This document shows positions 1,604 to 16,023 of a DNA stretch of 16,023 bases, one piece after another. Origin of the DNA: Candidatus Hydrogenedentota bacterium (GTDB lineage Bacteria > UBA8481 > J006). The notes under the pieces were generated by a model, which was not told the origin of the DNA, ran no database searches, and saw only the letters and a program-made list of their open reading frames with translations. The position numbers were made by a program, and so were the translations under genes. Location: assembly GCA_003697085.1 (NCBI GenBank), contig RFFU01000008.1, forward strand, positions 1 to 16,023, written 5' to 3'. Numbering within the stretch: position 1 is the first letter of the stretch; the number at the start of each line of letters is the position of its first letter.

Positions 1604-3340
1604 GTGAGTCGGCACGCCCTCCGCTCTCCGCGCGAGCTTGAACGCCTTCTGGCTCGAATCGACGGGCGCGGGTATAAAGCGTATCGGGATCTCCATGGCC
1701 GGTACGACTTCGAAGACTTCCTCCTCTCGATCGACCACGTTCAATCCGATCCCTTCGCCTCACCCAGCCGCGTCTCCGTTCAGATTCCCTTTTCCCGAAC
1801 CGGACTCCCAAGGGAGACGATCGAGGGAACATCGCGCATCGTCGCGACCGAGGATTTTCTCTTGAGATCTCTTGTGCGAAACGCTCGGAAGGAGGAGTCC
1901 CGCAGCGGGCGCGCGGGTTCCGGAAGCGGCAAAAGCGGCCGCATCCTCGTCCTTGAACCCGGTCCGGCTCTTCTGAAACGAAGCGCCGTACGGATCGATG
2001 CCGCTCAACTTGAAGCGCGGTTCCGCGTGGGCCTTCCGGCGTTCGGACGACGTATCGCCGGCGAACCCGCGCGTCGCCTCCTCCTCGAATCACTCCCCCG
2101 GCTCATTCGCTCCTCGCTCTTTTACTCCTCTCTCGATGCCGATGCCCTCAAGCGATGGGCGGATGTCAGTGAAGACGCCGACGCTCTTCGAGAGGCTTTG
2201 CCGCGGCTCGGTCTCGTCGCCTTTGTCGCCGACGGTGCAATCCTCCCGCGCGCCTCCGGCATCGCTACCGATCCTCTTCCCGCTTCCGAAGCCGTTCCCT
2301 TTGCGTCCCCCGAATCGCTCCGCGTCTCGATTTCGACACCACATTCGGGAATTCTTTCCGGAATGGGAGTTCCCCGCGGAGTGACGCTTATCGTCGGAGG
2401 CGGTTACCACGGAAAATCGACGCTCCTCAACGCCCTGATGCACGGCGTCTATAACCATATTCCGGGGGACGGTCGGGAGCGAGTGGTAACCGATTCGACC
2501 GCGGTCAAGATCCGCGCCGAGGACGGCCGCTCGGTGCGAGGAGTGGATATCTCTCCGTTCATCAACAATCTCCCCTTCCGGCGCGATACCACCGCTTTCA
2601 CGACGGACGACGCCAGCGGCTCCACAAGCCAGGCGGCCTCGATCATCGAGGCCGTCGAAGCCGGAGCGGAGGTTTTGTTGATCGACGAGGATACCTCAGC
2701 GACCAACTTCATGATCCGCGACCATCGAATGCAGAAATTAATCCGCACGGAGGACGAACCGATCACGCCGTTCGTCGATCGCGTCCGGCAACTCTTTTCC
2801 GCCCGCGGTGTCTCGACAATCCTGGTTTTGGGCGGCAGCGGAGACTACCTCGATGTGGCCGACACCGTCATCGGACTTTTCCAATACCGCGTGCGGGACC
2901 TGACGCCGGAAGCAAAGCGGATCGCCGGGGAAAACCCCACCGGGCGGGAACGCGAATGCGCCGAGGATTTCCCTGAGCCGCGCCGTCGGATTCCGATCCG
3001 AGGCGGTATCAGCGCGCGACGGGGACGGCACGACGCGAAAATACGGGCGCGGAACCGGAAGGAAATCTCGTTCGGCCGGGATGAGATCGATCTTTCGAGC
3101 GTAGAGCAGATCGTCGAGACGGCGCAGACGCGCGCGATCGGCGACGCCGTTCATCGTGCCACGGCTCTGATGGACGGCCGCCGAACAATGACCGAAATCC
3201 TCGATGCCGTCATGGCCGAAGCCGAGAAGGGGTTGGACTACATCGCCCTCGTCAAGAGCGGAGAATACGCCGCCTTTCGAAGGCAGGAATTGGCGGCCGC
3301 CATCAATCGCCACCGCGGGCTTTCCACCGCTTCCCGATGA
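1604..3340 (+). CDS. Predicted ABC-class ATPase (ABC_ATPase / PF09818-like), function unknown
   Basis: A soluble P-loop ATPase of about 578 residues with no transmembrane partner nearby. Counting from a GTG at 1604, the N-terminal family block IDGRGYKAYRDLHGRYDF is at 19-36, followed by LSIDHVQSDPFASPSR at 41-56. The Walker A variant GGGYHGKST is at 265-273, the signature-like SGSTSQAASI at 338-347, and the Walker B region VLLIDEDTSATNFMIRD at 357-373. VLGGSGDYLDVAD at 408-420 resembles a switch region. This order matches the family known only as predicted ABC-class ATPases, for which I know of no established role. The open frame extends back to 1292 inside pckA, but the translation before about 1600 is low-complexity shadow. 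GTG 1604 is the last start before the conserved block, although it has no clear Shine-Dalgarno. The C-terminal third (after about residue 430) is Arg-rich. The stop overlaps the next start as ATGA, so the two are probably co-translated. Confidence 0.88.
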   Translation: MSRHALRSPRELERLLARIDGRGYKAYRDLHGRYDFEDFLLSIDHVQSDPFASPSRVSVQIPFSRTGLPRETIEGTSRIVATEDFLLRSLVRNARKEESRSGRAGSGSGKSGRILVLEPGPALLKRSAVRIDAAQLEARFRVGLPAFGRRIAGEPARRLLLESLPRLIRSSLFYSSLDADALKRWADVSEDADALREALPRLGLVAFVADGAILPRASGIATDPLPASEAVPFASPESLRVSISTPHSGILSGMGVPRGVTLIVGGGYHGKSTLLNALMHGVYNHIPGDGRERVVTDSTAVKIRAEDGRSVRGVDISPFINNLPFRRDTTAFTTDDASGSTSQAASIIEAVEAGAEVLLIDEDTSATNFMIRDHRMQKLIRTEDEPITPFVDRVRQLFSARGVSTILVLGGSGDYLDVADTVIGLFQYRVRDLTPEAKRIAGENPTGRERECAEDFPEPRRRIPIRGGISARRGRHDAKIRARNRKEISFGRDEIDLSSVEQIVETAQTRAIGDAVHRATALMDGRRTMTEILDAVMAEAEKGLDYIALVKSGEYAAFRRQELAAAINRHRGLSTASR

Positions 3341-3951
3341 ATCCGGAACCTTCCGAACGTTTTCTTCTCCTTCGTTTCGCCCTCCTTACGGAAGGCTTTC
3401 TCTTTGTTCTTGGCGCACTTCTGGCGTGGTATCTTGCGATCCCCCTTCGCTCCCTCTTCCACGCCGACACGGACGCCGTCCTCCTCGGCTTCGCCGGAAC
3501 CCTTCCTCTCGTTCTCGCGCTGGCAATCGAATATCGCTACCCGGGACCGTTACGGGAGACGCTGGAGAGTATCGAGGAATTCCTTCTGCCGGTGATTCAA
3601 GCCGCGGCTCTTTGGGAACTCCTCTTCGTCTCCTTGCTTGCCGGCGTCTGCGAAGAGTTCTTCTTCCGGGGAGTGATGCAGAGCGGCTTCACTCAGTACA
3701 ACGGTGTCGTCGCCGGAATCATTCTCTCTTCGCTGGCCTTTGGAGCCGCACATCTCGTCACGCCGGGATACGGGCTCGCCGCCGCTCTCCTAGGCACCTG
3801 GCTCGGCGCCTGCTTTCACTTCACGGGAAATCTCCTCGTCCCGATCCTTCAGCACGCCCTCTATGATTTCATCGCTCTCCTCGTTCTCCGCCGTCGTGGT
3901 CCTCGGTTCCCGGAAACACCGCTGGGTTTTACAGCCGAAGATTCAACCTGA
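3337..3951 (+). CDS. CPBP (CAAX/Abi-type) intramembrane metalloprotease family protein
   Basis: A 204-residue polytopic membrane protein with hydrophobic segments around residues 14-36, 48-64, 88-104, 122-140, 143-160 and 165-184. The three family motifs are present and intact. CEEFFFRG gives the EExxxR motif (E106, E107, R111). FGAAHL gives the FxxxH motif (F135, H139). QHALYDF supplies the last His and Asp (H173, D177). These form the zinc-dependent glutamate-protease-like site of the CPBP family, whose members include prenyl-protein proteases and bacteriocin-immunity proteins. The substrate is unknown. The ATG overlaps the stop of the ABC-class ATPase gene as ATGA, which links the two. The gene ends only 20 bases from the convergent rhodanese gene, leaving almost no room for a separate terminator. 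Confidence 0.93.
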   Translation: MNPEPSERFLLLRFALLTEGFLFVLGALLAWYLAIPLRSLFHADTDAVLLGFAGTLPLVLALAIEYRYPGPLRETLESIEEFLLPVIQAAALWELLFVSLLAGVCEEFFFRGVMQSGFTQYNGVVAGIILSSLAFGAAHLVTPGYGLAAALLGTWLGACFHFTGNLLVPILQHALYDFIALLVLRRRGPRFPETPLGFTAEDST

Positions 3952-3971: not shown

Positions 3972-4673
3972 CTAACACCCAAAATCCGGTTCTTCGTCCT
4001 CTTCTGGCTTTTCCTCTCCGGACCTCGTTCCTCGTTCCGTTCCGGGCTTCCCGAACCTTACCCTCCGCCCCTTCTCCTCTTCCGAACCGCGCCTTCCGCT
4101 CCTCTCTTTCTTCTCATCCTTCCTTCCCGTCGAAGCATTTTTCCCCCCCGAAGGCGCAAAGGAGGACGATCCATAACTCGTCCACGCCCGATAGCCGCCC
4201 CGCAATTCCCACACATTATCGAACCCCGCGATCCTCAAGGCCACCAAGGCATGCGTGCTCCGTTTTTGGGAACGGCAATATACCAGGATTTTCTTCTCCG
4301 GCCGCAATTCGGCATGCGGCTCGGAAAGAAGCCTCCGGAGAGGAATGTTGATTGCGCCAGGGATATGCCCCGCGGCGTATTCTTTCGGGGTCCGTACATC
4401 CAGAATCAAATCAAAGGGACCGGAATCCCCTGACAAGAATTCCTTCACGGAAACCTGATAGCGGCCCGGAGGAATTCGTTCGAGATACCCGCGGGCCAAT
4501 TCCCTCCTTTCTTTCTCCCAGGAATTTCGACTCGCAGCAATCTCTTCCGCCGAATACCGGGGGGTGTGCGCTCCCCGCACTCCACCGCACCCGGCCGGGA
4601 GAAGCACCAAGAGGAATCCGAAAAGGAGGGTCGACAAAATCGAGCGTGAACAAAAAGAAAGCCGGCGGCGCAC
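3972..4673 (-). CDS. Rhodanese-domain lipoprotein with charged C-terminal tail (start uncertain)
   Basis: A predicted periplasm-facing sulfurtransferase, last in the minus-strand respiratory gene run. From the GTG at 4673 the protein is 233 residues. It begins with a lipoprotein signal: VRRRLSFCSR, a hydrophobic stretch, then LLPAGC with the lipidated Cys at 29. A rhodanese domain covers about residues 75-165, with DVRTPKEYAAGHIPGAINIP and the active-site loop YCRSQKRS (catalytic Cys133), then ELRGGYRAW. Rhodaneses carry sulfane sulfur; the polysulfide-binding Sud protein of Wolinella is a precedent beside a polysulfide reductase. After about residue 168 the chain is a low-complexity Lys/Arg/Glu-rich tail of some 65 residues. 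An upstream in-frame GTG at 4727 would overlap tatA and add 18 residues. A TTG at 4637 would fall after the terminator hairpin. None has a clear Shine-Dalgarno. Domain call firm, start weak. Confidence 0.87.
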   Translation of the reverse strand: MRRRLSFCSRSILSTLLFGFLLVLLPAGCGGVRGAHTPRYSAEEIAASRNSWEKERRELARGYLERIPPGRYQVSVKEFLSGDSGPFDLILDVRTPKEYAAGHIPGAINIPLRRLLSEPHAELRPEKKILVYCRSQKRSTHALVALRIAGFDNVWELRGGYRAWTSYGSSSFAPSGGKNASTGRKDEKKERSGRRGSEEEKGRRVRFGKPGTERGTRSGEEKPEEDEEPDFGC

Positions 4674-4687
4674 TTGCGCCGGCCGGC
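4648..4687 (-). terminator. Strong intrinsic terminator-like hairpin after tatA
   Basis: On the minus strand a GC-rich stem of about 12 pairs (arms 4687-4675 and 4672-4661, one bulged C, very short loop) is followed directly by a T-rich run, TTTCTTTTTGTT, at 4660-4649. This is the textbook form of a Rho-independent terminator. It sits some 25 bases after the tatA stop but inside the 5' part of the rhodanese reading frame, so it may reduce or end transcription between the respiratory operon and the rhodanese gene. Termination itself is inferred. Confidence 0.7.
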
Positions 4688-4710
4688 AGATACAGTCGGA
4701 GGTTTCGCCT

Positions 4711-4905
4711 CTAGCGGTTCTGTTCACGGGTTTTTCCGTGCCCCGCCCCTTTCTCGACCCCGATCGGATTCGTCTCCTGTAATCCCGTTCGGAATTCCCG
4801 GGCGGCCGCCCCCAACGAACGGGCGACCTCGGGGATCCTCTTCGCGCCGAAGAAGATGATCCCCACGAGAAAGATCAGAACCCATTCCGACCCGCCGGGA
4901 AACAT
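4711..4905 (-). CDS. tatA: Sec-independent translocase subunit TatA/TatE family
   Basis: A 64-residue TatA-type protein, a component of the twin-arginine translocase that moves folded, cofactor-loaded proteins across the inner membrane. It has a short periplasmic N-terminus (MFPGGSEW), a single membrane helix at about residues 8-19, the conserved FG hinge (F19-G20), an amphipathic helix from AKRIPEVARSLGAAAREFRTGL (about 21-42), and a polar tail. Length and order are normal for the family. The start lies 3 bases after the stop of the molybdopterin subunit, and an AAGGTG ribosome site overlaps the end of that gene, so it is co-transcribed and probably translationally coupled. Its place beside Tat-exported redox subunits suggests a locus-dedicated pore component. 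TatC is not in this window. TatA versus TatB/E cannot be separated with full certainty. Confidence 0.93.
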   Translation of the reverse strand: MFPGGSEWVLIFLVGIIFFGAKRIPEVARSLGAAAREFRTGLQETNPIGVEKGAGHGKTREQNR

Positions 4906-4908
4906 TCG

Positions 4909-7900
4909 TCACACCTTCACGATATTAACGCGCGTATCGTAGAAGGAAGACGACGCGCCGATCGGATCGGTGAGGCACATATCTCCGAGAGCCGGATCAA
5001 CCAGCATCAACGGATTCGGGCAGGCTCCGGCCGCACGCCGCCTGTCTCCGCGAATTGTTCCGCCATCCACCACAACATCCCGCGAACCGTAGGCCCAGTG
5101 TCCGAAGTGCCAGGAGACGCCGACCGTTCCCGGCCGGATTCCCTGCAGGACCTTCACCTTCGCTTCGACCGCACGCTTCTCTCCATTCCCCAGAGAGAAG
5201 ACACCCTCCGGATTCGCCTCGGAGACCAATCGGACCGTCTCGCCGTCACGCACTCCGTACCGCGCCGCATCGCGTACATTCAAGAGGACGTAATTCTCGG
5301 GATAGAGTCCGAGATTCGTCCAGTAATTCGAGATCGTCCGCGAGTGTCCGCCGAAGGACTCCTTGAACGTGAAAAGCGCCAGGGGATATTTTTCACTCTG
5401 CCGCACCGCACGCCCCTTCGCGTCGGCAACTCCCATCGCCACGGGGGAATCGACAAGCGGCAGCCCCGGGAAATATGCCCCCGTCATGGCATTGCGACTC
5501 CGTGCCACGTCGTCGTAAAAGAGATGAAAGGCATGCGCCAGGCGTTTCTTCATAAATTTCCCGTCGTAAGCCGTTTCGAAGGGAGCGTACCGCCCTCCCC
5601 GATTGAGCACGTACACGACCTTCCTCCAGAGGGATTCATCGTTTCCGATCGCGCGTTTCCATTTCGCTTCGTCGAAAACGCTCGGTGGAAGATGACGCCG
5701 GGCGGCACGAAAGACCGCCAGTTCCTCCCCATCAGCCTCCGGCACGTCCTGCCCCGGCTTGTCGCCGACGGCAAGATTCGCCACCGCTTTCAGATAAAAA
5801 TCCTCCGGTCGGTCCAACGAGGCTCCTTCACCGACGGCGTTCTTGCCGAATCCGGGGAGTTTCAAGGCCTTTCCGACGGCGATACAGAAGGCCTCCAGGG
5901 AAATCGGCATCTTCTCGCCCGCCACCGTGCATTCCTCGGTCAGCGGCTTTGCCGCGGGCTGACGCACCTTGCTGGTCGCCGAATTGACATCGGGAGTGAC
6001 GTGCGGCGTTCCCCAGCGCTCCAGGTAGGTCAGATCGGGAAGGATATAGTCCGCATACATCGATGTCTCGCCGATGACGATGTCGCTTGCGATAAAGAGC
6101 GGAATCTTCTTCGGATCCTTTAGCGTCTCGATGTAACGATGGCCCGCGGGCGTGGATAGCGCCGGCGTCCCCTTGTGGAGGAGAAGAATCTCGCATCCGT
6201 AAGGATACCGGGCCGCCGCCGAGGGGATAACCTCCTGATAGATGTTTCCGGAAAACGGATACCAGAGCCTCGGTGCCTTGTATCCCTGCTCGCGGAAGAG
6301 AGAGTAATCCTCGTACCTCGCCTTCTCGCGCGACATCTTCGGTCCCCACGTCGGGAAGAGTTTCTTGAGCCGACCCTTGATCTTGAAGACGCCCGCCGGT
6401 TTGCTTCCATCTTCGTGCCAATGGCCTCCGCCCTTCGAAAGTCCTCCCTTCCAGTCGATGTTCCCGATCAAAACATTGAGCGCGATGATCGCTTGAGCGG
6501 CCCAGAGACCGTTGGCATGCTGCACCGGTCCGCGATAGAGATCGATGGCCGATCGTTTCCCGTGAGACGTAAACTCGCGCGCCACCTCGACGATTTTCCG
6601 GACAGGAACTCCGGCCTCCTTCGCCCAGTCCTCGATCGTCTTCTTGAAGGCTTCATCACGCCATACGGAGAGCACCGTCTTGGCCTTCTTTCCCCCGATT
6701 TCGACCTCCGCGAAGAGTTCTCCCTCCTGAGCCGGCCCTTCTTCCTTGACCACGACCGGCCGGCCGCCGGAAACGATCACACGTTCCTCACCGCCGCGTC
6801 CCAAGTCCTTGCCCCGCACGTAACGCGCCGGACGACCGTCCTCGATAAATACCAACGCCGTGGCATCCGACCAACAGGACTCCCCGTCCTCCTTCGCCGC
6901 GGCCTTGTTGGCATTGGCGAGAAACCGCGCGTCGTACCGCCCGTTCTCAAGAATCCAGCGGTGCATCGCCATCGCAAGGTGAACATCCTTGCCGGGCTTT
7001 ACCGGCAGCCACCACTTCGCCTTCGCCGCCGTCTTCGAAAGCCTGGGATCCACCACCGCCATCTTCAGTCCGCGCTCGACCAGTCCCGAGGTTACCTTCT
7101 CGGCCATCGGGGTCAGCCCGAAGTTCGCCTCGAAGGCGCCCGTCCCCCAGAAGATCACAAACTCGGAATTGAGAAGATCCGGCTTGAGATGGTGGGTTTT
7201 GTGATGCGTCATCTCGGAAAAGGCGATGTGATGCGACTGCTCGCAGATCGTCGTGTGCTCGTAGAAGTTAACCGACCCGCAAGCCTTCGTGAACCATTTG
7301 CCGAACTCTTTCCTCCCGTGCTCGATCCGACCCGCAAGAAACGTGAAACCGTTGTTCCGCGGTCCGAGATCGGGATGTTGGGGATCAACGAGAAGTTTCG
7401 AGAGATCGCCGTGACGGGAGCGGAACTGTTCCAACGTTATCTCACCCTTGGCGAACTTCTTCGCATCGTCCTTCAAGGCCTTGGCCTTCGCCTCGTCCCG
7501 TACAGCGAGAACTTCCTTGAACCCGGCCACATGCCGGTTCTCCCCGGCCTCGGAAAAGAGTTTCCCGCCCTCGACCACTTCCTTGATGAATTGATCAAAC
7601 GGGATCGACTTCCAGCGGTTCGAGCCGCGAGGCCCGACCCGCTTCAACACCTTCCGAATACGGTAGGGATCGTAATAAGTCTGAATCCCCGCCTGTCCCT
7701 TCGGACAGACCTTGGCATCGATCAAAACGGACACCTTCGGCGATGTCTCATAGGGAATGTGGGGAAGCATCGATTGGGGGCTGTAGGGATTTCCCGTTAT
7801 CTTCGCCAGCACCCCGTCCCAATACTTCGTCTTGATCGGGCAATCGACATGGCACTGGAGACACGTTGTGTATATGACGTTTTCGGGTAGCGATAATTCG

Positions 7901-8073
7901 TACACTCCTTCGGGCGCGCCGAGGAGACGTTCCGCCAATGCCCGTGATGTTCCCAGCACGGAGGCGAATGCGGAACACCCGCCGACGAAGGCGGCGGACT
8001 TCAGAAGTTCCCGCCGTGTCAATCCCTGCGTCTCTTTCATCTTTTCCTCCTCCACTTCCATCTGCTTGCTCAT
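4909..8073 (-). CDS. Tat-exported molybdopterin oxidoreductase catalytic subunit (Psr/Phs/Ttr/Arr-like)
   Basis: Catalytic subunit of a DMSO-reductase-family complex, expected in the periplasm with bis-MGD molybdenum. The 1054-residue chain starts with a twin-arginine signal (TRRELLKSAAFVGG, R20-R21). A [4Fe-4S] motif follows at C71, C74, C78 and C123 (CLQCHVDC, then VCPKGQAG). The likely Mo ligand is C277 in EHTTICEQSHH. Downstream are typical cofactor and tunnel motifs: FWGTGAFEANFG, ALNVLIGNIDWKGG, YADYILPDLTYLERWG, and the C-terminal dinucleotide-binding region with KESFGGHSRT and WHFGHWAYG. The size (about 1020-1050) fits tetrathionate-reductase-like subunits better than PhsA/PsrA (about 760), but ArrA-like or other relatives are possible. 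ATG 8073 overlaps the NrfD stop as ATGA. A second ATG at 8040, preceded by GGAGGAGG, would give a more usual short Tat signal. A His-rich patch (281-295) and a charged segment at about 185-230 are unusual. Confidence 0.93.
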   Translation of the reverse strand: MSKQMEVEEEKMKETQGLTRRELLKSAAFVGGCSAFASVLGTSRALAERLLGAPEGVYELSLPENVIYTTCLQCHVDCPIKTKYWDGVLAKITGNPYSPQSMLPHIPYETSPKVSVLIDAKVCPKGQAGIQTYYDPYRIRKVLKRVGPRGSNRWKSIPFDQFIKEVVEGGKLFSEAGENRHVAGFKEVLAVRDEAKAKALKDDAKKFAKGEITLEQFRSRHGDLSKLLVDPQHPDLGPRNNGFTFLAGRIEHGRKEFGKWFTKACGSVNFYEHTTICEQSHHIAFSEMTHHKTHHLKPDLLNSEFVIFWGTGAFEANFGLTPMAEKVTSGLVERGLKMAVVDPRLSKTAAKAKWWLPVKPGKDVHLAMAMHRWILENGRYDARFLANANKAAAKEDGESCWSDATALVFIEDGRPARYVRGKDLGRGGEERVIVSGGRPVVVKEEGPAQEGELFAEVEIGGKKAKTVLSVWRDEAFKKTIEDWAKEAGVPVRKIVEVAREFTSHGKRSAIDLYRGPVQHANGLWAAQAIIALNVLIGNIDWKGGLSKGGGHWHEDGSKPAGVFKIKGRLKKLFPTWGPKMSREKARYEDYSLFREQGYKAPRLWYPFSGNIYQEVIPSAAARYPYGCEILLLHKGTPALSTPAGHRYIETLKDPKKIPLFIASDIVIGETSMYADYILPDLTYLERWGTPHVTPDVNSATSKVRQPAAKPLTEECTVAGEKMPISLEAFCIAVGKALKLPGFGKNAVGEGASLDRPEDFYLKAVANLAVGDKPGQDVPEADGEELAVFRAARRHLPPSVFDEAKWKRAIGNDESLWRKVVYVLNRGGRYAPFETAYDGKFMKKRLAHAFHLFYDDVARSRNAMTGAYFPGLPLVDSPVAMGVADAKGRAVRQSEKYPLALFTFKESFGGHSRTISNYWTNLGLYPENYVLLNVRDAARYGVRDGETVRLVSEANPEGVFSLGNGEKRAVEAKVKVLQGIRPGTVGVSWHFGHWAYGSRDVVVDGGTIRGDRRRAAGACPNPLMLVDPALGDMCLTDPIGASSSFYDTRVNIVKV

Positions 8074-9338
8074 CGTCCTTCCTCCTCCGTCAATTCATAG
8101 AGCGGCAGAAGCCGACACGCCGCAATGAAGACCAAGCCCACCGCCGCAAAGACACCGATCGAGGAAGTCCACTCGATCAAACTCGGAAAATAGGAATAAG
8201 CCAATCGCGGGTGGACGAAGATCTTGTCCAACCCCGGCAGTTGGGGATAGAGATAGGCGGGAATGACGATATTGAGCCGGACCGCGATGATCCCGATGAC
8301 GACCATCCAGCCGGCCGTTCCGAGCCAAAAGTAATTCCGCCGCGTCATCGGCAGGGATGTGATGAGGAGCGGAAGGAGCCAAGCCAAACCGATCTGGCCG
8401 ATCCAAAAGACGTACCAGAAATCGCCGAACATAATCGCGTGCAGGATCTCGACGTGGTCGGGGATCGCGCCGTAGTAGCCCACCAGCGTATCGCTGAAGA
8501 AGAGGAGCAGGTCGATGACGATGAAGATCGCCAGGAAATCCCGTAACCCGGCCACGATCGGTTCGTAATCCTCGTCACGCCGCCCGAAACCCGCATAAAG
8601 GGCCAGCATCAACCCCGTCCCGGAGAGCAAAGCGGACACGAGGAAGATGATCGGGAAGAGGCCGCTGAACCAATAGGGTTTTGCGGCCACGACGGCGAAG
8701 ATCGCTCCTGTCCCTCCGTGAACCCCGATCGCAATCGGAATCCCGATGATTCCGATGGCCTTCACCCACCGCAAGGATTGCGCGTGACAGGCTTCCTGCC
8801 CTTCGGGCGTCTCCGGACATCGCCACCGCAGGGCCAAACAACGGTAGAAGACCTTCTTCCAACCCGTCGAACGATTGGCGAGACGATCGAGATCGCAGCG
8901 CATCAAAAGCCAGAGTTCGAGGCAGATGGCCGCGATGTAGAAGAGGTAGAAGAGCGATTCCCACGCAAGCACCGACGACCTTTGCCAGCCCGTGAAGATC
9001 TTGTAAAACCGGAAGGGATGGCCCAGATCGATCCAGATGAAGGTCATACCGGCGCAGAGCGCAAAGAGCGCGGAGAGAAGCGCCATCCGCCCCATCTTCT
9101 CGAAACGGGTCATTCCAAAGACATAAATCACCGTTGAAAGAAGGAAGGAGCCCGCCGAAAGGCCGATGCAGTAGATGTAGTACGCCACCCACATTCCCCA
9201 GGGAACGTTGCTGGTAAGGGCGGTGACGGCCAGGCCCTTCTGGAGCCGTTGGAAGATCGCCGCCGCGCCGATCACCGCCAAGACGAAGAGAACCAACAAT
9301 CCGATGCCTTCTCGTAAACCCAATCTTTTCTTCACCAT
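8070..9338 (-). CDS. NrfD/PsrC-type quinol-oxidising membrane subunit
   Basis: Membrane anchor that should pass electrons from the quinol pool to the ferredoxin subunit. The 422-residue chain has about nine to ten hydrophobic helices. Family features include NVPWGMWVAYYIYCIGLSAGS (44-64) and WIDLGHPFRFYKI (102-114), the latter near the quinol site in this family. VHGGTGAIFAV (206-216) and FFSDTLVGYYG (280-290) also fit. A loop after helix four holds three Cys (C167, C174, C184; YRCLALRWRC, then EGQEACH), which I do not recall as a family hallmark. ATG 9338 is chosen because AGGAG sits 7 bases before it. A GTG at 9353 overlapping the ferredoxin stop is the alternative. The 3' end overlaps the molybdopterin subunit start by ATGA. 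TtrC, PsrC and ArrC-like proteins all belong here, so the substrate cannot be read from this gene. Confidence 0.93.
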   Translation of the reverse strand: MVKKRLGLREGIGLLVLFVLAVIGAAAIFQRLQKGLAVTALTSNVPWGMWVAYYIYCIGLSAGSFLLSTVIYVFGMTRFEKMGRMALLSALFALCAGMTFIWIDLGHPFRFYKIFTGWQRSSVLAWESLFYLFYIAAICLELWLLMRCDLDRLANRSTGWKKVFYRCLALRWRCPETPEGQEACHAQSLRWVKAIGIIGIPIAIGVHGGTGAIFAVVAAKPYWFSGLFPIIFLVSALLSGTGLMLALYAGFGRRDEDYEPIVAGLRDFLAIFIVIDLLLFFSDTLVGYYGAIPDHVEILHAIMFGDFWYVFWIGQIGLAWLLPLLITSLPMTRRNYFWLGTAGWMVVIGIIAVRLNIVIPAYLYPQLPGLDKIFVHPRLAYSYFPSLIEWTSSIGVFAAVGLVFIAACRLLPLYELTEEEGR

Positions 9339-9345
9339 CGTCCTA

Positions 9346-9350
9346 CTCCT
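9346..9350 (-). promoter_or_regulatory. Ribosome binding site deciding the NrfD-subunit start
   Basis: AGGAG on the minus strand is separated by 7 bases from ATG 9338. It favours this ATG over the GTG at 9353, which overlaps the upstream stop and lacks its own site. Confidence 0.6.
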
Positions 9351-10210
9351 CACACCAAGTAATAGACCTGGGGATGGGTCCCGAGGTCTTCCTTCAGCCG
9401 GGAGGTCTTCAGTGAACCGATCAATTCACTCACGAGAGACTCCGGATCGTTCCCGTCGCCGAAATAGGTCGCGCCGCCGATACAGGTCGTCACACAAGCG
9501 GGCAACATCCCGACCGAGATGCGGTGGAGACAGAATTGGCATTTCCGCGCATTGCCCTTCGGAGAGCGGTTCGGTTCGTTCGGCAAGCGGCGGCGGTCCT
9601 CGCCGTATTCCGGGGAAGGCCGCGTCTCGTACTCGCTGATCCTCGGCGTCCCGCTCTCGTAGTACTCGCCCCAGTCGAAGGTGCGTGCGCCGTAAGGGCA
9701 GGACGTCACGCAATAACGGCAACCGATGCATTGATCGTAATCGATCGCGACGATCCCATCGGATCGCTTGTAGGTGGCTCCGGTCGGGCAGGGAGGAACA
9801 CACGGAGGATTTTCGCAGTGCATACACGGCCGCGGCAGATACCGCTTCCGAACGTTGGGGTATTCCCCGAGTTCGGTTTCCGTGACCGGCCGGTACAACA
9901 CCCCCGGCGGCAGGACATTCTCCGCAATGCACGAAACGGTGCACGCGTGGCAACCGACGCATTTGTTCAAGTCGATCACCATCACCCATCTCCGCTGCTC
10001 AATCGGTTTCGTCAAGGCGCGATTGAGGTCCGCACGCATTCGTTCGAGTATCGATCCCTCGGCCAGCGGCTCGGGCGCGTCGAGAACTCCGGCGACCGAT
10101 TCCCGCGGAATCGCCGCCGCGCGGCTCGGCAACGCTCCCAAAAACGTCGCCCCCGCCGCCGCCATCGCCGCCTCGAAAAACCGCCGGCGCTCCTCCTCTA
10201 GTTCCGGCAT
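9350..10210 (-). CDS. Four-cluster 4Fe-4S ferredoxin electron-transfer subunit (PsrB/TtrB-like)
   Basis: Electron-relay subunit between the NrfD anchor and the Mo subunit, 286 residues. Four cysteine groups are complete: C84-C87-C90-C94 ([11 protein letters not shown]), C129-C132-C137-C141 ([13 protein letters not shown]), C161-C164-C167-C171 ([11 protein letters not shown]) and C224-C227-C239-C243 (CQFCLHR, then PACVTTC). This is the usual 16-Cys arrangement for four [4Fe-4S] clusters. The N-terminus has [13 protein letters not shown] followed by an Ala-rich stretch ending PSRAAA, a Tat-like signal as found in TtrB-type subunits, which places the protein on the periplasmic side. ATG 10210 has a good ribosome site (AAGGAG within GGAGAGGAG). 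The gene follows the porin by about 34 bases, and its stop abuts the NrfD start region. The segment at about 185-220 between the third and fourth groups is a long polar insert. Confidence 0.94.
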
Positions 10211-10244
10211 CGGCTCCTCTCCTTTCTTTCTCCCTTTGTCTCCC

Positions 10245-11378
10245 CTAAAACTTCACCTGCGACTGCAACAAAACCTGCTTCCTGTCCGCCGAACCGTACA
10301 GCGACGCCGTCGGGTCCTGGGAAACCTCGTCGTAATCCAGCAGGAAGAGAATGTTGTCGCTGAACTTGTACGAGACGCCGCCGATGTAACGGTCGTGCGA
10401 GTTGTTCGCGATCACGTCGTCGGGATCCCATTTGTCCCAGCGACCGAACAACTCCACCTTCTCGAAACTCGGAACCTTTACGGCACCGAAGAGTGAGAAA
10501 CCTTTTCCCTTGATGTCGCGCGTCACGGTCGCTGGAACGGCCGTCCGATTGGCCCCCGGGACGTCCGCGCGATTGTCGTCCTTCGTCCACATATAGTCGA
10601 AGCCCAGGCGGAAGAGGTCGTTCTTGTAAAATCCTTGCGCGATGTAACGCGTGCTGACTCGGCCGATGTTCCGATTGTGCCGTATTCCGAATCCGGAGAT
10701 CGAAAGACCATCGAGGAACGACGAGAGATCGGCTGTCAACCGCCCTTGAATCGCCTTGCCTGAATTCACCTCATCGGTCCGGTAGCCCTCTCCGTTCGTG
10801 TAGGCCACGTCATACTCTAGGGGCAGCGAGGGAATCATTCCCTTCAACGCCACACCGCGATCCGTTGAACCGTAATAGCCCTCGCGGTCCGAAAAGATCG
10901 TCCCTTGAACACGATAGCCCCACAGATGTTCTTCGCGCCCGACCCAAACCGTCGGAATCTGACCGAAACGGAAATGGGCATCGCCCGGAATCGGCGTGTT
11001 CAGGTCCGCAAAGAGGTACTTGATGTTCGTCGAGTACCCTTCGGCGCCGCTCTGGTCGCGAAAATCATAGGTCAGTTTGAATTTTCCCACATCTCCCAAC
11101 CCCGCTTTGAAGGTCAGATACATCCGCGTCGATTCGAAGGCGTTGTACGGCTTCCGTGCCGTTGCGCCCGCATTCGGGTCCCGCGTCAACTCCGTTCGGT
11201 ACTGCAGATACGTCTTCCCCGAGATACTGAGGTCGAGAAGTTTTTCCTGGTTCGGGCCCGCCTTCGTCGTCACCTGCCCCGTCTCCTTGTCCCGGTACAA
11301 CTTCAACGCCCGCGCAGGAAGAGCCAAACTCAACCCCACCAATACCGCCACCCCGAAAGAAAGTAATCGTCTTGACAC
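10245..11378 (-). CDS. Outer-membrane beta-barrel porin (OprO/P- or phosphate-selective-porin-like)
   Basis: A 377-residue secreted barrel protein, first gene of the minus-strand operon. The N-terminus is a Sec signal peptide ([20 protein letters not shown], cleavage near ALPARA). The mature chain has alternating aromatic/polar strands such as [36 protein letters not shown] and [11 protein letters not shown]. It ends in VLLQSQVKF with a C-terminal Phe, the usual signal for barrel assembly. [20 protein letters not shown] resembles the substrate-porin family that includes OprO/OprP. Specificity is not visible. Its place at the head of a respiratory operon suggests entry of the acceptor or exit of product. 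GTG 11378 is chosen for GGAGGTG 5 bases upstream and for the compact signal peptide; ATG 11399 is the alternative. Confidence 0.85.
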
Positions 11379-11383
11379 GATCA

Positions 11384-11390
11384 CACCTCC
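11384..11390 (-). promoter_or_regulatory. Ribosome binding site deciding the porin start
   Basis: GGAGGTG on the minus strand lies 5 bases before GTG 11378. It would fall inside the coding region if ATG 11399 were used, so it favours the GTG. Confidence 0.6.
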
Positions 11391-11487
11391 AATGAACATT
11401 TCTCCACTCCAAGAAACCTCTCACGGTCGCCCGCGGCAGCGCCACCGACGCGCAACACCGGTCCGTGAGGGCCTCTCAATCGGACAA

Positions 11488-11517
11488 ATTATCGTTCCCT
11501 TTTCCTTCCAACCGCAA
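11488..11517 (-). promoter_or_regulatory. Candidate promoter for the porin/respiratory operon
   Basis: On the minus strand TTGCGG (11517-11512) and GATAAT (11493-11488) are separated by 18 bases. The -10 matches five of six consensus positions and the -35 is weak. It lies about 110 bases before the porin start. A weak -35 suits an activator-dependent promoter, but this is a match by eye only. Confidence 0.3.
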
Positions 11518-11522
11518 TTCGC

Positions 11523-11546
11523 CATAAGTACCATTTTTCACATAAG
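11523..11546 (+). repeat. Direct repeat CATAAG, possible regulator half-sites
   Basis: CATAAG occurs at 11523-11528 and 11541-11546, 18 bases apart start to start, inside the AT-rich part of the divergent intergenic region. It lies between candidate promoters in both directions. It could be a pair of half-sites for the neighbouring NarL/FixJ-type regulator, or chance. Confidence 0.25.
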
Positions 11547-11555
11547 GTTTCTGGG

Positions 11556-11561
11556 TATAAT
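11556..11561 (+). promoter_or_regulatory. Perfect TATAAT -10-like hexamer
   Basis: A perfect TATAAT stands in an otherwise GC-rich setting, but no good -35 lies at the right distance (ATTTTT at 17-base spacing). It would face the sensor genes with a leader of about 400 bases. The palindrome GTATT-A-AATAC (11578-11588) lies 16 bases downstream. Confidence 0.25.
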
Positions 11562-11798
11562 GCTCCACCTCCGATCCGTATTAAATACTGAGGCGCGATC
11601 AGCAGCGTCGCCTCCCACTCCCTCGGCGATCTCCCCGGCACAAACACGCTCTTTCGACGGGGTGCGCCGCGCTCTGTCGGTCCTTACTGTGCCCCGAAAA
11701 AATTAAAGATCGGATTTAGAAAGAAAAAATTTTCGGAAAAGGATTTTTTCCCGATCTCCGTGACTACACGAAAAGAAGACGGACGGGAAACGGGGCGC

Positions 11799-11845
11799 GG
11801 GTTCTTTAACCTGCGAAGAGCAGATCCGCCATCCGCAGACGGGAG
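11799..11845. repeat. Degenerate copy of a dispersed intergenic repeat
   Basis: The 30 bases 11799-11828 match the reverse complement of 15054-15083 at 23 positions, and all seven differences are transitions. The next stretch (GATCCGCCATCCGCAGA, 11823-11839) also matches 15057-15073 directly, so the unit is partly palindromic. Both copies are outside genes. This looks like a REP- or MITE-like family rather than coding sequence. Confidence 0.5.
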
Positions 11846-11944
11846 AGTCCGCGCTCCGTCCACGGAATCTCCGGCGGCAAAAGACCCGTTTGGCACAACG
11901 TACCGATATTTCCGAATCCTTCCCGCTGAAAGAAAATCGAGGCT

Positions 11945-11972
11945 TTGTACGGGACCACTTCCCGCATAGAAT
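11945..11972 (+). promoter_or_regulatory. Candidate promoter with near-leaderless start for the sensor genes
   Basis: TTGTAC (11945-11950) and TAGAAT (11967-11972) are spaced by 16 bases. The -10 matches five of six positions and the -35 three. Transcription would begin about 3 bases before the ATG at 11982, where I see no Shine-Dalgarno, so a leaderless message is conceivable. Weak evidence. Confidence 0.25.
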
Positions 11973-11981
11973 GCTTGGTAA

Positions 11982-12962
11982 ATGAAACTCTTCTGGAAAA
12001 CGCGCTTCGGACCGCACCTCACCATCCTTTTCGGGGGCGCCATCGTCGTCTTTTTGCTCTTTCTCTACGCGGAGAAGTTGCGACTTTGGACGATCGAGAG
12101 TCTCTTTCCGAACCGCATAACCTGGGAACCCACCGCCTCTTCGCCGCAAAAGAACAATAAAGGCCGCCCCGATCCCTACCACCTCCCGAAAACACCCTTT
12201 CGCATCGCCGTGGCGCCGATCGTTTCCCCCGAGTCCTCGCTCATCCGTTACCACGGCCTGGCCGTCTATCTCGGAAGTCGTTTCAACCGTCCCGGTAAGA
12301 TCATCCTCCGCGATAATTACCTCTCCATCAACCGCGTCATCCAGAACGGGGAATGCGATCTTGCCTTCATCTGCACTTACGCCTATATCGTCGGCGAACG
12401 TGAGGGTTATCTCAAAGTCTTGGCCGCGCCGGTCATCCACGGAGCGAAGACCTATCGATCCTTGCTCATCGCTCCGTTCGGAACCACCGCGAAGAATATC
12501 CTCGATTTCCGCAACAAGACCTTCGCTTCCGCCGACCCTCTCTCCTTCTCCGGCTGGCTCTATCCGATGTTGGTCTTGAAGAAGGCCGGAGAGGACCCGA
12601 GACATTTCTTTTCGAAACACATCATATCGGGAAGTCATGATCGCTCCGTGAACGCGGTTGCCGACGGGGTTGTGGACGCCGCCGCCGTGGACAGCCTCAT
12701 CTTCGCCGCAATGCCGGAAGAAATCCGAAGAAAGGTCGTCGTCATCGATTCCTCTCCGCCCGTCGGAATGCCACCGGTCGTTGTCCCGAGTTCCCTCGAT
12801 TCCCGCACGGCCGAGCGGTACCGCGACGTTCTCACGACGATGCAGCGTGATCCCGAGGGAAGGTCAATCCTCGCCTCCCTCGGTTTCGACCGCTTCGTTC
12901 CCGTCACCCCCGCCGATTATGCTTCCGTTCGCGAGGCGGTACGCCAGTGGGAGACACACTGA
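11982..12962 (+). CDS. Membrane-anchored PhnD-like periplasmic binding protein (sensor component)
   Basis: A 326-residue protein of the phosphate/phosphite/phosphonate-type binding family, first in a sensor operon. A single hydrophobic segment at residues 13-31 should anchor it, with the rest in the periplasm. Family features are FRIAVAPIVSPE (73-84), LAVYLGSRF (93-101), NGECDLAFICTYAYIVG (122-138), FASADPLSFSGWLYP (181-195), and SGSHDRSVNAVADGVVDAAA (216-235), the last two forming the usual ligand cleft. No transporter genes are nearby. Instead the gene overlaps a sensor kinase by 16 bases, as with AioX/ArxX beside their kinases; in TtrS a similar domain is fused to the kinase. I infer ligand detection rather than uptake. 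Cys at 125 and 131 lie by the cleft motif. The start ATG has no obvious ribosome site. Confidence 0.88.
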   Translation: MKLFWKTRFGPHLTILFGGAIVVFLLFLYAEKLRLWTIESLFPNRITWEPTASSPQKNNKGRPDPYHLPKTPFRIAVAPIVSPESSLIRYHGLAVYLGSRFNRPGKIILRDNYLSINRVIQNGECDLAFICTYAYIVGEREGYLKVLAAPVIHGAKTYRSLLIAPFGTTAKNILDFRNKTFASADPLSFSGWLYPMLVLKKAGEDPRHFFSKHIISGSHDRSVNAVADGVVDAAAVDSLIFAAMPEEIRRKVVVIDSSPPVGMPPVVVPSSLDSRTAERYRDVLTTMQRDPEGRSILASLGFDRFVPVTPADYASVREAVRQWETH

Positions 12963-14401
12963 AGACCGCGGTCGAAAACCGATCTTCCCGGCCCAAAACA
13001 GGCCTCCTTCACACGCTCCTCTCCGTTCCCATCTCTATGAAGATTATGGGAATCGGAGCCGTGGTCGCCGCCATCTTCGGCACGGCGACTCTCTACCAGG
13101 TTCAGCGTTCGTTGACCCGAAGCTATTACCTCCGTCTCGAGGAGACACTTAATTCGAGTTCGATGATGATGAGCGGCCTCGTTTCACGGCCGATCGCGGT
13201 CGGCGATATCATTCAACTCCGGAAAACCCTTCGCTTCTTCCGCGCTTCCGTCCCCGACGTTTTCTGTGTGGACATTTTCGATCCGAAAGGCGATGTCGTA
13301 TCACGGAGCATCAATCCGAAAATCGGTCTCGACCGCCTCCCCCCCTTCACCTCTTCTCTCGATGAAAGGCCCCAAGCCCTTTTCCTTCCCTCGGGGGAAC
13401 TTCTTCTAATAAAAATCACACCAATCCTTCAAGGGGCGGGAGGGTATCTTCGTATCATCGTCTCGGACCGGCGCATCCGCTCCGAACTCCGCCGGCTGAC
13501 GTTGAATTTCCTCTTTACGCTGCTGTTGTGCCTCGTAGCCGGCGAAGGCTTGGCCCTGCTCCTGACCCACCAGATCGTCCATCCGATCGACCGCTTGAAA
13601 ACCGCCGCCGAATCGCTTCGCGAGGGCAAGGTCGAGAAGGCGGAGGTTTTCGCGGCGGATGAAATCGGAACCCTGGCGGAAACCTTCAACGCGATGACCG
13701 AAACCTTGGAGAAGCGTCGAGACGAGATTTTGCGGAAAGAACGGGACCGAGTTCGGCTCATCGATGCGCTCGTCTCGGCGCAGGAAGAAGAACGCCGGCG
13801 GATCGCCTCCGAACTCCACGATGAAGTCGGAGCCGCCCTTTCCGCACTTCTGCTTATGATCGAATCCCTTCCCTCCGAGAGTCCTGAAATCCGGGAACGG
13901 CGAACCGAATTCCGAAAACATCTCGAACGAAGCATTGAGAACGTCCGCCGCCTCTCGTTCTCGCTTCGGCCCGCCGTGCTTGACGATTTCGGTCTCGAAT
14001 CCGCCCTCAAGCGTTACATCACCCTTCTCAATCAGCACTCCAAGACGAAGTTCAATTTCCGTTTTATTCAGTCCGCCTCCTCCAAACGGCCTCCGGAAGC
14101 CGTCGAAACGACCCTCTACCGAATCACTCAGGAGGCGGTCAACAACGTTCTCCGCCACGCCGAGGCTTCCTCGGCTGAGATTATGATCTTGATCAGAAAG
14201 GACGAATGTGTTCTCGTCGTCGAGGATGACGGGAAGGGCTTCTCGGCGCGGAAGACGAACGAGGTCTCTTCCGGCATCGGCTTGATCGGGATCCGGGAAC
14301 GCGCGGAGATACTGGGGGGGACCGTTTCCGTTGACTCGGAAGTCGGCCGCGGGACAACATTGCAGGTCAAGATTCCTCTGGGAAGGGAGCCGGAGATATG
14401 A
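12947..14401 (+). CDS. Sensor histidine kinase, HisKA_3 (NarX/DegS) type with HAMP domain
   Basis: A 484-residue inner-membrane kinase, likely signalling to the regulator encoded immediately downstream. Transmembrane helix one is at about 31-52, a small periplasmic domain at 53-183 (with VFCVDIFDPKGDVVSRS at 105-121, PAS/Cache-like in look), and helix two at about 184-207. A HAMP segment spans about 209-262 (HPIDRLKTAAESLREG, then DEIGTLAETFNAMTE). HisKA_3 contains EEERRRIASELHDEVGAALS with phosphoacceptor His291. The ATPase domain shows QEAVNNVLRHAEAS (N box), VVEDDGKGF (D box) and GIGLIGIRERAEILGG (G box). GTG 12947 overlaps the binding-protein gene by 16 bases and the stop overlaps the regulator start as ATGA, so the three are co-translated. 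The kinase keeps its own periplasmic domain as well as a separate PhnD-like partner. Confidence 0.95.
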   Translation: MGDTLKTAVENRSSRPKTGLLHTLLSVPISMKIMGIGAVVAAIFGTATLYQVQRSLTRSYYLRLEETLNSSSMMMSGLVSRPIAVGDIIQLRKTLRFFRASVPDVFCVDIFDPKGDVVSRSINPKIGLDRLPPFTSSLDERPQALFLPSGELLLIKITPILQGAGGYLRIIVSDRRIRSELRRLTLNFLFTLLLCLVAGEGLALLLTHQIVHPIDRLKTAAESLREGKVEKAEVFAADEIGTLAETFNAMTETLEKRRDEILRKERDRVRLIDALVSAQEEERRRIASELHDEVGAALSALLLMIESLPSESPEIRERRTEFRKHLERSIENVRRLSFSLRPAVLDDFGLESALKRYITLLNQHSKTKFNFRFIQSASSKRPPEAVETTLYRITQEAVNNVLRHAEASSAEIMILIRKDECVLVVEDDGKGFSARKTNEVSSGIGLIGIRERAEILGGTVSVDSEVGRGTTLQVKIPLGREPEI

Positions 14402-15051
14402 GGAAGAAAACGAGGATTCTCATTGCCGATGACCACGCGATGTTCCGTGCCGGGCTCAAGGCTTATCTCGAGTCGGAAGAGGGATTCGAGGTTGTTGCGG
14501 AATGCGGAAACGCCGAGGAGATCGACCGGCTCCTTCCGAAAAAGAAGCCCGACGTCGTTTTGCTCGATATCCGTATGCCGGGACCGCCCGTGACCGAAAC
14601 CGTGCGGTTGATCAAGAAGACCCGCGCCCAGGCTCTCGTCATCGTCCTTACGATGCACGAGGAAGAACGTTATCTTCGCGAGGTCTTTCAGGCCGGGGCG
14701 GACGGCTTCGTCCTGAAGAAATCCTCCGCCTCTCAACTCATAACCGCCCTCGAAACCATCCGAAGCGGCCAGAAATACATCGATCCCGCGCTTTCGGATC
14801 TGATGGTTTCCTCGATGATCTCCCCTTCACAATCTTCCCCGGAAAAATCCTCGCCGCTGAGTCCTCGGGAAACCGAAGTTCTGAAATTGATCGCCCGTGG
14901 TTACACAAACCAGCAGATCGCCGACGAACTCTTCATCTCGAAACGAACCGTCGATACCCACCGCGCCAACATTCAATCGAAACTCGGCGTCAAGACCCGC
15001 GCCGAACTCGTCGATTACGCACTTGCTCGAAATCTCCTTACGGAGGAGTAG
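14398..15051 (+). CDS. NarL/FixJ-family DNA-binding response regulator
   Basis: A 217-residue two-domain transcription regulator. The receiver has the acidic pair D11-D12 (LIADDHAMFRAG), the phospho-acceptor D57 (VVLLDIRMPG), T85 (IVLTMHEEE) and K107 (GFVLKKSS). A LuxR-type helix-turn-helix fills about 150-212: LSPRETEVLKLIARGYTNQQ, then IADELFISKRTVDTHRANIQSKLGV. It is the natural partner of the overlapping HisKA_3 kinase (ATGA overlap at the start). By analogy with TtrR and NarL it should control the divergent porin/molybdopterin operon, although no binding site has been shown. The stop falls within an inverted repeat (CGGAGG 15041-15046, CCTCCG 15063-15068) that starts the downstream repeat cluster. 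Confidence 0.96.
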   Translation: MRKKTRILIADDHAMFRAGLKAYLESEEGFEVVAECGNAEEIDRLLPKKKPDVVLLDIRMPGPPVTETVRLIKKTRAQALVIVLTMHEEERYLREVFQAGADGFVLKKSSASQLITALETIRSGQKYIDPALSDLMVSSMISPSQSSPEKSSPLSPRETEVLKLIARGYTNQQIADELFISKRTVDTHRANIQSKLGVKTRAELVDYALARNLLTEE

Positions 15052-15282: not shown

Positions 15283-15300
15283 AGGGAGCGTAGACTCCCT
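15283..15300 (-). terminator. Hairpin at the stop of the Spy-like gene
   Basis: AGGGAG (15283-15288) and CTCCCT (15295-15300) form a 6-base stem with a 6-base loop overlapping the stop codon region of the minus-strand gene. The palindrome at 15260-15276 follows closely. There is no T-run, so intrinsic termination is doubtful; a 3'-end stabilising or Rho-linked structure is equally possible. Confidence 0.3.
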
Positions 15301-15865
15301 ATCGTTCCTCTCCGCCCCAACCGCGCCGGTTTCCTCCTTGGCCCCTTCCCCTGTTCCGGCCCCGCATTCGATTCCTCAACATTCGCTTCATCCGCTCCTT
15401 GATCAACAACAACTCAGCCGCCTTTCTCGGCCCCAATATCTTCTCGATATCCCGACTGAGTTTGACGGCTAAAAGCGCCTGCTCTTCCTGAATTTTCCTC
15501 AAAACATCCAACTGTGCCTCGATCTCCGCGTCCGAGCTCTCTTCATCCTTGACCAGATCCCTGAGCTTCTTTCCTTCCTCTTGAAGCCGTTTTCGCACCT
15601 CGATGCGTTCCTTCCGATACTTCTCCTCGATATTCATCAATTCCGAGACCTGTTCGTCGGTAAGGTCGAGACGTTCCGCGAGTTTTTGTGCGATCCGCTC
15701 CCGTATCTTCCGCCTCCTCTCTTCCCGCGCGGCAGAACGCTCCTGCTGATTCGTCACCGCCTCGTCGCCATATTCTTGGGCCGTCACGGAACGTCCGAAA
15801 CCAAGCACCAATATCCCACAGAGCAACGCCCAGAAAACCCGTCGTCTCCATTCGTTCCTCTTCAT
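15299..15865 (-). CDS. Spy/CpxP-like LTxxQ-motif periplasmic protein with Arg/Gly-rich tail
   Basis: A 188-residue exported helical protein. The signal peptide is MKRNEWRRRVFWALLCGILV with cleavage near VTA-QE (29/30). The mature chain is charged and helical, with RLDLTDEQVSEL (65-76) carrying the LTxxQ motif of Spy/CpxP-like and zinc-resistance-associated proteins. Long charged helices with coiled-coil character follow (about 78-165). The last 25 residues are Arg/Gly-rich (MRGRNRGRGQGGNRRGWGG), unusual for the family. ATG 15865 is chosen because AAAGGAG lies 7 bases upstream; earlier starts at 15871 and 15910 have poor spacing or overlap the upstream gene. The upstream gene ends 2 bases before this start. 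Spy-like proteins act as periplasmic chaperones or envelope-stress regulators. A direct link to the respiratory locus is not visible. Confidence 0.8.
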   Translation of the reverse strand: MKRNEWRRRVFWALLCGILVLGFGRSVTAQEYGDEAVTNQQERSAAREERRRKIRERIAQKLAERLDLTDEQVSELMNIEEKYRKERIEVRKRLQEEGKKLRDLVKDEESSDAEIEAQLDVLRKIQEEQALLAVKLSRDIEKILGPRKAAELLLIKERMKRMLRNRMRGRNRGRGQGGNRRGWGGEER

Positions 15866-15867
15866 CG

Positions 15868-16023
15868 TCATACTCCTTTCCCGACCTCCCCCGCCCATTC
15901 CTCGAACCACTCCTCCAGTTCCTCGTCACTCAAACGATCCAACATTTCATCGACGCTCATTCCGTCCTCCTCAAGACTCGCCGAAAGTTCCAAGACATCC
16001 GCACCCGGAGCGGACGACGGACC
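15868..16023 (-). CDS. C-terminal end of an unidentified acidic protein (runs off the right edge)
   Basis: The minus-strand frame open from base 16023 to a TGA at 15870-15868 encodes 51 residues: GPSSAPGADVLELSASLEED, then GMSVDEMLDRLSDEELEEWF and a short end (EEWAGEVGKGV). It is strongly acidic, with helix-forming repeats of Asp/Glu/Leu. It ends 2 bases before the ATG of the Spy-like gene, whose ribosome site lies inside it, so the two are probably coupled. I do not recognise the family from this fragment. Position suggests a small regulatory or membrane-associated protein such as those often found before Spy-like genes, but this is a guess. An internal ATG at 15960 could also start a short gene of 30 residues. 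Confidence 0.6.
   Translation of the reverse strand, partial: GPSSAPGADVLELSASLEEDGMSVDEMLDRLSDEELEEWFEEWAGEVGKGV
15873..15879 (-). promoter_or_regulatory. Ribosome binding site deciding the Spy-like protein start
   Basis: AAAGGAG on the minus strand lies 7 bases before ATG 15865 and only 1 base before ATG 15871, so the former is the likelier start. Confidence 0.6.

Follow-up and report, generated by a model that had tools for sequence, protein, structure and literature searches.

The dissimilatory reduction of arsenate, which mobilises arsenic into groundwater, is usually surveyed with arrA as the marker. A published lineage of molybdenum (Mo) reductases comprises TtrA, SrdA and an alternative arsenate reductase (PMC7331816), and a seemingly novel lineage, sister to these and perhaps but not certainly the group described below, is mentioned in PMC10100899. 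Melioribacter roseus respires arsenate without Arr (PMC5492636, PMC3534657); an ArrTSR cassette and an ars operon precede its Ttr-type locus (PMC5492636). Arsenate induces a TtrA-type enzyme in Pyrobaculum aerophilum (cited in PMC5492636), and Muramatsu 2020, as cited in PMC9751629, names a Ttr-type enzyme as a possible As(V) reductase. Here a stretch of 16,023 nucleotides from a Candidatus Hydrogenedentota bacterium (assembly GCA_003697085.1, contig RFFU01000008.1; "the window") was analysed for a six-gene operon and the sensor cassette divergent from it. The operon encodes a respiratory Mo oxyanion reductase; as to substrate and direction, we infer with moderate confidence that the enzyme is an alternative (non-ArrA) respiratory arsenate reductase, and the adjacent ArrX-like sensor favours arsenate over sulfur compounds. 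The features of the locus are:

10245-11399, minus strand: outer-membrane porin, predicted 16-stranded barrel (384 amino acids)
9350-10210, minus strand: iron-sulfur (FeS) electron-transfer subunit B, four-cluster, with Tat-like leader (286 amino acids; Fer4_11 E 4e-22; DsrO/TtrB-like)
8070-9353, minus strand: NrfD-type quinol-oxidising membrane anchor C (427 amino acids; PF03916 E 5e-43)
4909-8073, minus strand: catalytic subunit A with Mo-bis(pyranopterin guanine dinucleotide) (Mo-bisPGD) (1054 amino acids; Molybdopterin E 3e-17)
4711-4905, minus strand: TatA/E-type translocase subunit (64 amino acids; PF02416 E 2e-15)
3972-4727, minus strand: exported rhodanese with GTG start (251 amino acids; PF00581 E 2e-21)
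11400-11981, no strand: intergenic region between the divergent units, presumably holding the promoters of both
11982-12962, plus strand: ArrX/AioX-type periplasmic oxyanion-binding protein, sensor X (phosphonate-binding type)
12947-14401, plus strand: membrane sensor histidine kinase S (HAMP and HisKA_3)
14398-15051, plus strand: LuxR/NarL-type response regulator R, without AAA+ domain

The genes from porin to rhodanese form a real operon, with junctions typical of a single transcript (porin to FeS, gap of 34 bp; FeS to NrfD and NrfD to Mo, overlaps of 4 bp each; Mo to TatA, gap of 3 bp; TatA to rhodanese, overlap of 17 bp). An earlier note on this DNA had described a compact same-strand operon of six genes including a porin and a TatA, which coordinates, junctions, barrel model, fold matches and the PF02416 match bear out; its porin boundary of 11378 was replaced, the reading frame starting at 11399, and the upstream sensor cassette (11982-15051) had been absent from it. 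Taken singly, the parts of the operon are ordinary. No RNA families were found in the window.

The catalytic subunit carries the Tat motif TRRELLK, the FeS cysteines C71, C74, C78 and C123 and the Mo ligand Cys277. Its best NCBIfam model was TtrA (NF011567) with 462 bits against a cut-off of 1750, followed by PhsA with 190 (cut-off 694) and ArrA (NF041714) with 122 (cut-off 1600); TtrA-clade rows of other genera reached 1218-1413 bits with the TtrA model. A profile built from eight relatives was used to scan the genome collection and retrieved 80 loci of 42-60% identity from many phyla, mainly in environmental genomes. Trees were quick searches without bootstrap, with support given by the Shimodaira-Hasegawa-like approximate likelihood ratio test (SH-aLRT). 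In a tree of 113 proteins the window fell inside an 83-row clade (SH-aLRT 100), and the same clade (41 rows) was recovered in a mixture-model tree of 78 proteins (SH-aLRT 99). On the sequences compared, this group, named clade W, is well supported and separate, with no characterised member among the data analysed. Its sister in the 78-protein tree was clade T (TtrA, the Citrobacter plasmid enzyme and others; support 99), and clade S (Bacilli, Clostridia, haloarchaea) stood outside both; the branching order of clade S is unsettled, since its position differs between the two trees. Bacilli members were present in all three clades, and SrdA of Bacillus selenatarsenatis may belong to any of them. 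True TtrA is 29% identical to the window subunit and, like ArrA, falls outside clade W. A Psr/Phs identity was rejected by models, trees and gene order (subunits B, C, A, instead of ABC), canonical ArrA by its 122 bits, the trees and an order other than CAB or AB, and the TtrA equivalog by score, separate clade (SH-aLRT 99-100) and the lack of TtrS/TtrR regulators. The Mo subunit is thus assigned, by BCA order, Cys ligand and nesting with TtrA, to the TtrA/SrdA/alternative-Arr family; the Psr/Phs/Ttr/Arr group named in the earlier note holds for the three-subunit core and is narrowed to this family, with placement in clade W.

Within clade W, Arg249 (41/41), His273 (37/41), Thr274 (40/41) and the Mo ligand Cys277 (41/41) are conserved and align with the Arg, His, Ser and Cys of ArrA, which we take to contact arsenate. 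At these positions TtrA has a gap for Arg249 and Gly in place of Thr274, as does most of clade S. The alignment with ArrA is counted for arsenate, as a prediction from residues, together with the precedent that M. roseus offers by analogy.

The sensor gave ArrX of Chrysiogenes as first phmmer match in the PDB (E 8e-41), followed by AioX (4e-21) and E. coli PhnD (1e-7). Its AlphaFold model (predicted local distance difference test, pLDDT, 90) matched ArrX best, at a template modelling (TM) score of 0.93, and was superposed on arsenate-bound 6xl2 with a root mean square deviation of 1.7. The AioX pocket is formed by Tyr88, Cys106, Tyr131, Ser161, Ser163, His192 and Asp210 (PMC5908839); the window counterparts (Tyr113, Cys131, Tyr158, Ser188, Ser190, His219, Asp237) keep all AioX/ArrX letters, which by the pocket criterion places the sensor in the AioX/ArxX/ArrX subfamily, with predicted arsenic binding. 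The Cys was present in 30/33 aligned sensors near clade W (one exception is the TtrS of an E. coli plasmid). In the sensor tree, ArrX, AioX and ArrA-adjacent sensors were interspersed among clade-W sensors, the Cys-type group being set apart from the phosphonate transporter protein and from Cys-less sensors at support 99. The sensors nearest to ArrX were those of clade W (ranks 1-11, 41-46% identity). The nearest solved structure, the model match, the pocket letters and the nesting in the tree are all counted for arsenate. The TtrR model gave 70 bits on the window regulator (cut-off 290), and ArrR likewise has no AAA+ domain, unlike AioR/ArxR (PMC5908839).

Association was assessed for loci with 5.5 kb or more of upstream and 3 kb or more of downstream sequence, with sensors counted within 9 kb. 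A Cys-type sensor was found at 22/40 clade-W loci versus 1/26 loci of clades S and T taken together (p 1e-5 by Fisher's test, uncorrected for kinship; related loci are not independent, and clade-W loci were drawn from a different collection than most controls) and, by the same rule, at 3/6 ArrA loci. The ArrA loci of the comparison (L158-L162, L165, L166; 1051-1296 bits) are read as ArrA-like because they score below the NCBIfam cut-off, and some may be ArxA. One of them (L159) has the order sensor-kinase-regulator-TatA-porin, and in another, of Anaerobacillus arseniciselenatis (L165), TatA accompanies the sensor cassette. At E 1e-80 the window genome gave no ArrA match, and the same was true of 16/19 other clade-W genomes tested. 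Canonical ArrA was likewise not found in the cultured clade-W carriers Desulfosporosinus acididurans, Carboxydocella thermautotrophica and Thermus arciformis. The sensor association, TatA and porin at ArrA loci and the absence of canonical ArrA were also counted for arsenate, and the window enzyme is a candidate among the enzymes of arsenate respiration that are still missing.

Among 86 clade-W loci (window included), a porin was near 14, a rhodanese near 12 and TatA near 7; a rhodanese was found at 1/12 clade-S, 0/18 clade-T and 0/7 ArrA loci. Five of the six operon genes plus the sensor cassette occur in a Calditrichia locus (L038: sensor-kinase-regulator-porin-FeS-NrfD-Mo-rhodanese) and in a deltaproteobacterial one (L035: sensor-kinase-regulator-FeS-NrfD-Mo-rhodanese-porin). 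All six together were found in the window and at no other locus examined, in a collection that represents the window's phylum by two genomes; the neighbourhood search suggested earlier has thereby been made, and the claim that this composition is undescribed as such is upheld. Genes of Mo-cofactor type (FmdE-like, MoeA, MoaA; named by eye) recurrently adjoin clade-W loci. In Anaerobacillus arseniciselenatis (L072, 3433-13495) and in another genome, G413 (L163, 2115-11838), a Psr-like cassette lies directly in tandem with the clade-W cassette; the sensor at L072 is without Cys. On three haloarchaeal plasmids (L020, L127, L130) the BCA core recurs with a TorD chaperone gene after it, joined in two of them by an Mrp/NBP35 ATPase gene, and on each plasmid a bacterio-opsin-activator-type regulator precedes the core.

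The porin gave only a sub-threshold Pfam match (Porin_O_P, E 0.011). Its AlphaFold model, made from 11 sequences, is a 16-stranded barrel (pLDDT 71) with general porins as PDB matches; a phosphate-type channel as proven identity was rejected, Porin_O_P being sub-threshold and OprP only 26th among the fold matches. Related porin genes stand next to some 13 further clade-W operons and next to two or three of the ArrA loci. TatA matched PF02416 with 56.6 bits (gathering score 21). One TatC and two other TatA/B genes are encoded elsewhere in the genome. The TatA of the operon therefore adds to copies that the cell already has, and the earlier statement that the operon supplies protein export goes too far; this TatA is probably linked to the enzyme. 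In Bacilli clade-S operons (L180, L182, L184, L185, L186) the FeS gene is immediately preceded by a TatA gene; this stable TatA-BCA order is, to our knowledge, undescribed. The rhodanese has the active-site loop YCRSQKRSTHAL; its unusual motif, YC[HR][ST]QKR[AS]THAL, is found in the window and in Chloroflexota clade-W operons. It is an exported protein and probably lipid-anchored; its own lipobox, LPAGC, is atypical, but those of homologues in sister operons are good.

In the proposed mechanism, arsenate would enter through the porin and periplasmic arsenate would be sensed by the binding protein, upon which kinase and LuxR-type regulator would switch on the divergent operon. Menaquinol would be oxidised by NrfD, and the FeS subunit would pass the electrons on to the Mo-bisPGD in subunit A, which lies in the periplasm and would reduce arsenate to arsenite. 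The extra TatA may aid export of the folded, cofactor-loaded A and B subunits, and the exported rhodanese probably handles sulfane sulfur, e.g. arsenic-bound sulfur. Gene order, protein families, the Tat motif, the Cys ligand, the sensor pocket and the extra TatA can be read from the sequence itself; substrate, direction, regulation and the parts played by porin, TatA and rhodanese are proposals.

Several observations weigh against arsenate. The activity of clade W is a prediction for every member, and although arsenate raised the level of the ttrA transcript in M. roseus, significance was reached only by the rise of psr/phsA (PMC5492636). The pocket residues of ArrX alone are insufficient to fix the ligand (PMC5908839); the window sensor (34.5%, rank 53) is more distant from ArrX than are most clade-W sensors, which reach up to 46%, and clade-W sensors of Anaerobacillus (L072) and of a Gemmatimonadetes metagenome-assembled genome (MAG; L057) lack the Cys. 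No ArrR-like palindrome was found in the intergenic region 11400-11981, ars genes are conserved beside clade-W operons only at few loci, and TatA was rejected as an arsenic marker, being also present in 6/12 clade-S operons. A reciprocal search, begun from the sensor in 386 genomes with the Cys assigned by pattern, placed Cys-type sensors beside a clade-W enzyme (L244), beside Psr-like enzymes (L223, L233) and, at L224-L227, some on short contigs, without a Mo gene nearby; ArrX-like sensor cassettes also lay beside decaheme-type cytochromes (8-10 CxxCH) with no Mo enzyme nearby (L234-L236). With such varied partners, a sensor of this type does not belong to a single enzyme and does not fix the substrate, which weakens the ArrX-type sensor as proof of arsenic.

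The main rival, considered unlikely, is an enzyme for sulfur oxyanions (tetrathionate, thiosulfate, polysulfide), possibly at work in the disproportionation of thiosulfate, where the rhodanese would accept the sulfane sulfur. An exported rhodanese with its own conserved loop is a clade-W trait (12/86), and among NCBIfam models TtrA scores best. A clade-W locus is also present in a Thermosulfurimonas dismutans MAG (L052), and BCA proteins, likened here by their Ttr type, are strongly produced by Desulfolithobacter in thiosulfate disproportionation (PMC9751629). Yet the Mo subunit, with 462 of 1750 bits, lies far under the equivalog cut-off and outside the TtrA clade, TtrS and TtrR are missing (regulator at 70 bits versus 290), the active-site Arg kept in clade W is missing from TtrA, the sensor is of arsenic type, and M. 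roseus, of similar layout, was unstimulated by sulfur, thiosulfate and sulfite (PMC3534657; tetrathionate was outside that test). The tilt to sulfur in the earlier note was drawn from the rhodanese only and is not supported, given the adjacent ArrX/AioX-type sensor and a cultured arsenate respirer with the same sensor-plus-Ttr-type layout (PMC5492636).

That the substrate is selenate, antimonate or thioarsenate, which are other group-15/16 oxyanions, appears improbable: the family includes the selenate reductase SrdA, a kinship by published assignment (PMC7331816), but ArrX and AioX bound no selenate, antimonite or sulfur oxyanions in calorimetry (PMC5908839). For selenate there is also the selenate/arsenate respirer Anaerobacillus arseniciselenatis, which has a clade-W operon, with Cys-less sensor, besides its ArrA locus. 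NrfD-anchored complexes can run in both directions, which would allow an anaerobic arsenite oxidase feeding the quinone pool, analogous to Arx. The arsenite sensors AioX and ArxX belong to the same sensor subfamily (PMC5908839); this direction is nonetheless held to be very improbable, as ArrX is a closer relative of the sensor than AioX and aligns with it without gaps around the differing loop, the regulator is of LuxR type like ArrR and not AAA+ like AioR/ArxR (PMC5908839), and the M. roseus precedent is reductive.

If clade-W enzymes are arsenate reductases, surveys based on arrA overlook the trait in Chloroflexota, Planctomycetota, Acidobacteriota, Nitrospirota, Calditrichota and other phyla. 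For arsenate respirers reported to have no arrA there would then be a candidate gene that can be tested and that is recognisable by the signature of its sensor. A wider, tentative and rather doubtful proposal is that clade W is a second, phylum-spanning arsenate reductase family, which would have arisen from the tetrathionate/selenate reductase side independently of ArrA under the same ArrX-type control, its dedicated exported rhodanese allowing thioarsenate use in sulfidic water.

Two further genes flank the system. A CPBP/Rce1-like membrane protease (3337-3951) is convergent with the end of the rhodanese gene. At the other side, the response regulator gene converges with that of a Spy-like periplasmic chaperone (15299-15910; 32 bits, below cut-off), a possible member of the same stress context.

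Among known systems, the TtrA/SrdA/alternative-Arr lineage shares with the window a Cys-ligated Mo-bisPGD subunit of about 1,050 amino acids, the B-C-A order and a Tat leader. Salmonella-type TtrBCA/TtrSR (L022) has the BCA order, an NrfD anchor and a two-component regulator with a PhnD-like sensor domain in common with it; the window enzyme differs by 29% identity, a separate clade and Arg249/Thr274, absent in TtrA, and its sensor is a separate ArrX-like protein with Cys whose regulator is not TtrR. ArrAB/ArrXSR (Chrysiogenes; L159, L161, L165) is alike in the ArrX-type cassette, the Cys ligand and, at some loci, TatA and porin, whereas the window catalytic subunit is not ArrA (122 versus 1600 bits) and its order is BCA instead of CAB or AB. 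A BCA Mo reductase is also found inside an arsenic-resistance island on conjugative plasmids of Citrobacter arsenatis and ground-turkey Salmonella (L021, 10073-15468; L129, 6073-11468); it resembles the window enzyme in 34% identity, BCA order and arsenic context, and is set apart by its place on the TtrA side of the tree, its mobility and the lack of a sensor cassette. The M. roseus locus, likened here by its published description (PMC5492636), differs by the presence of an ars operon; in common with the window it has a cassette of sensor, kinase and regulator next to a Ttr-type reductase of three subunits, and its genome, too, lacks Arr.

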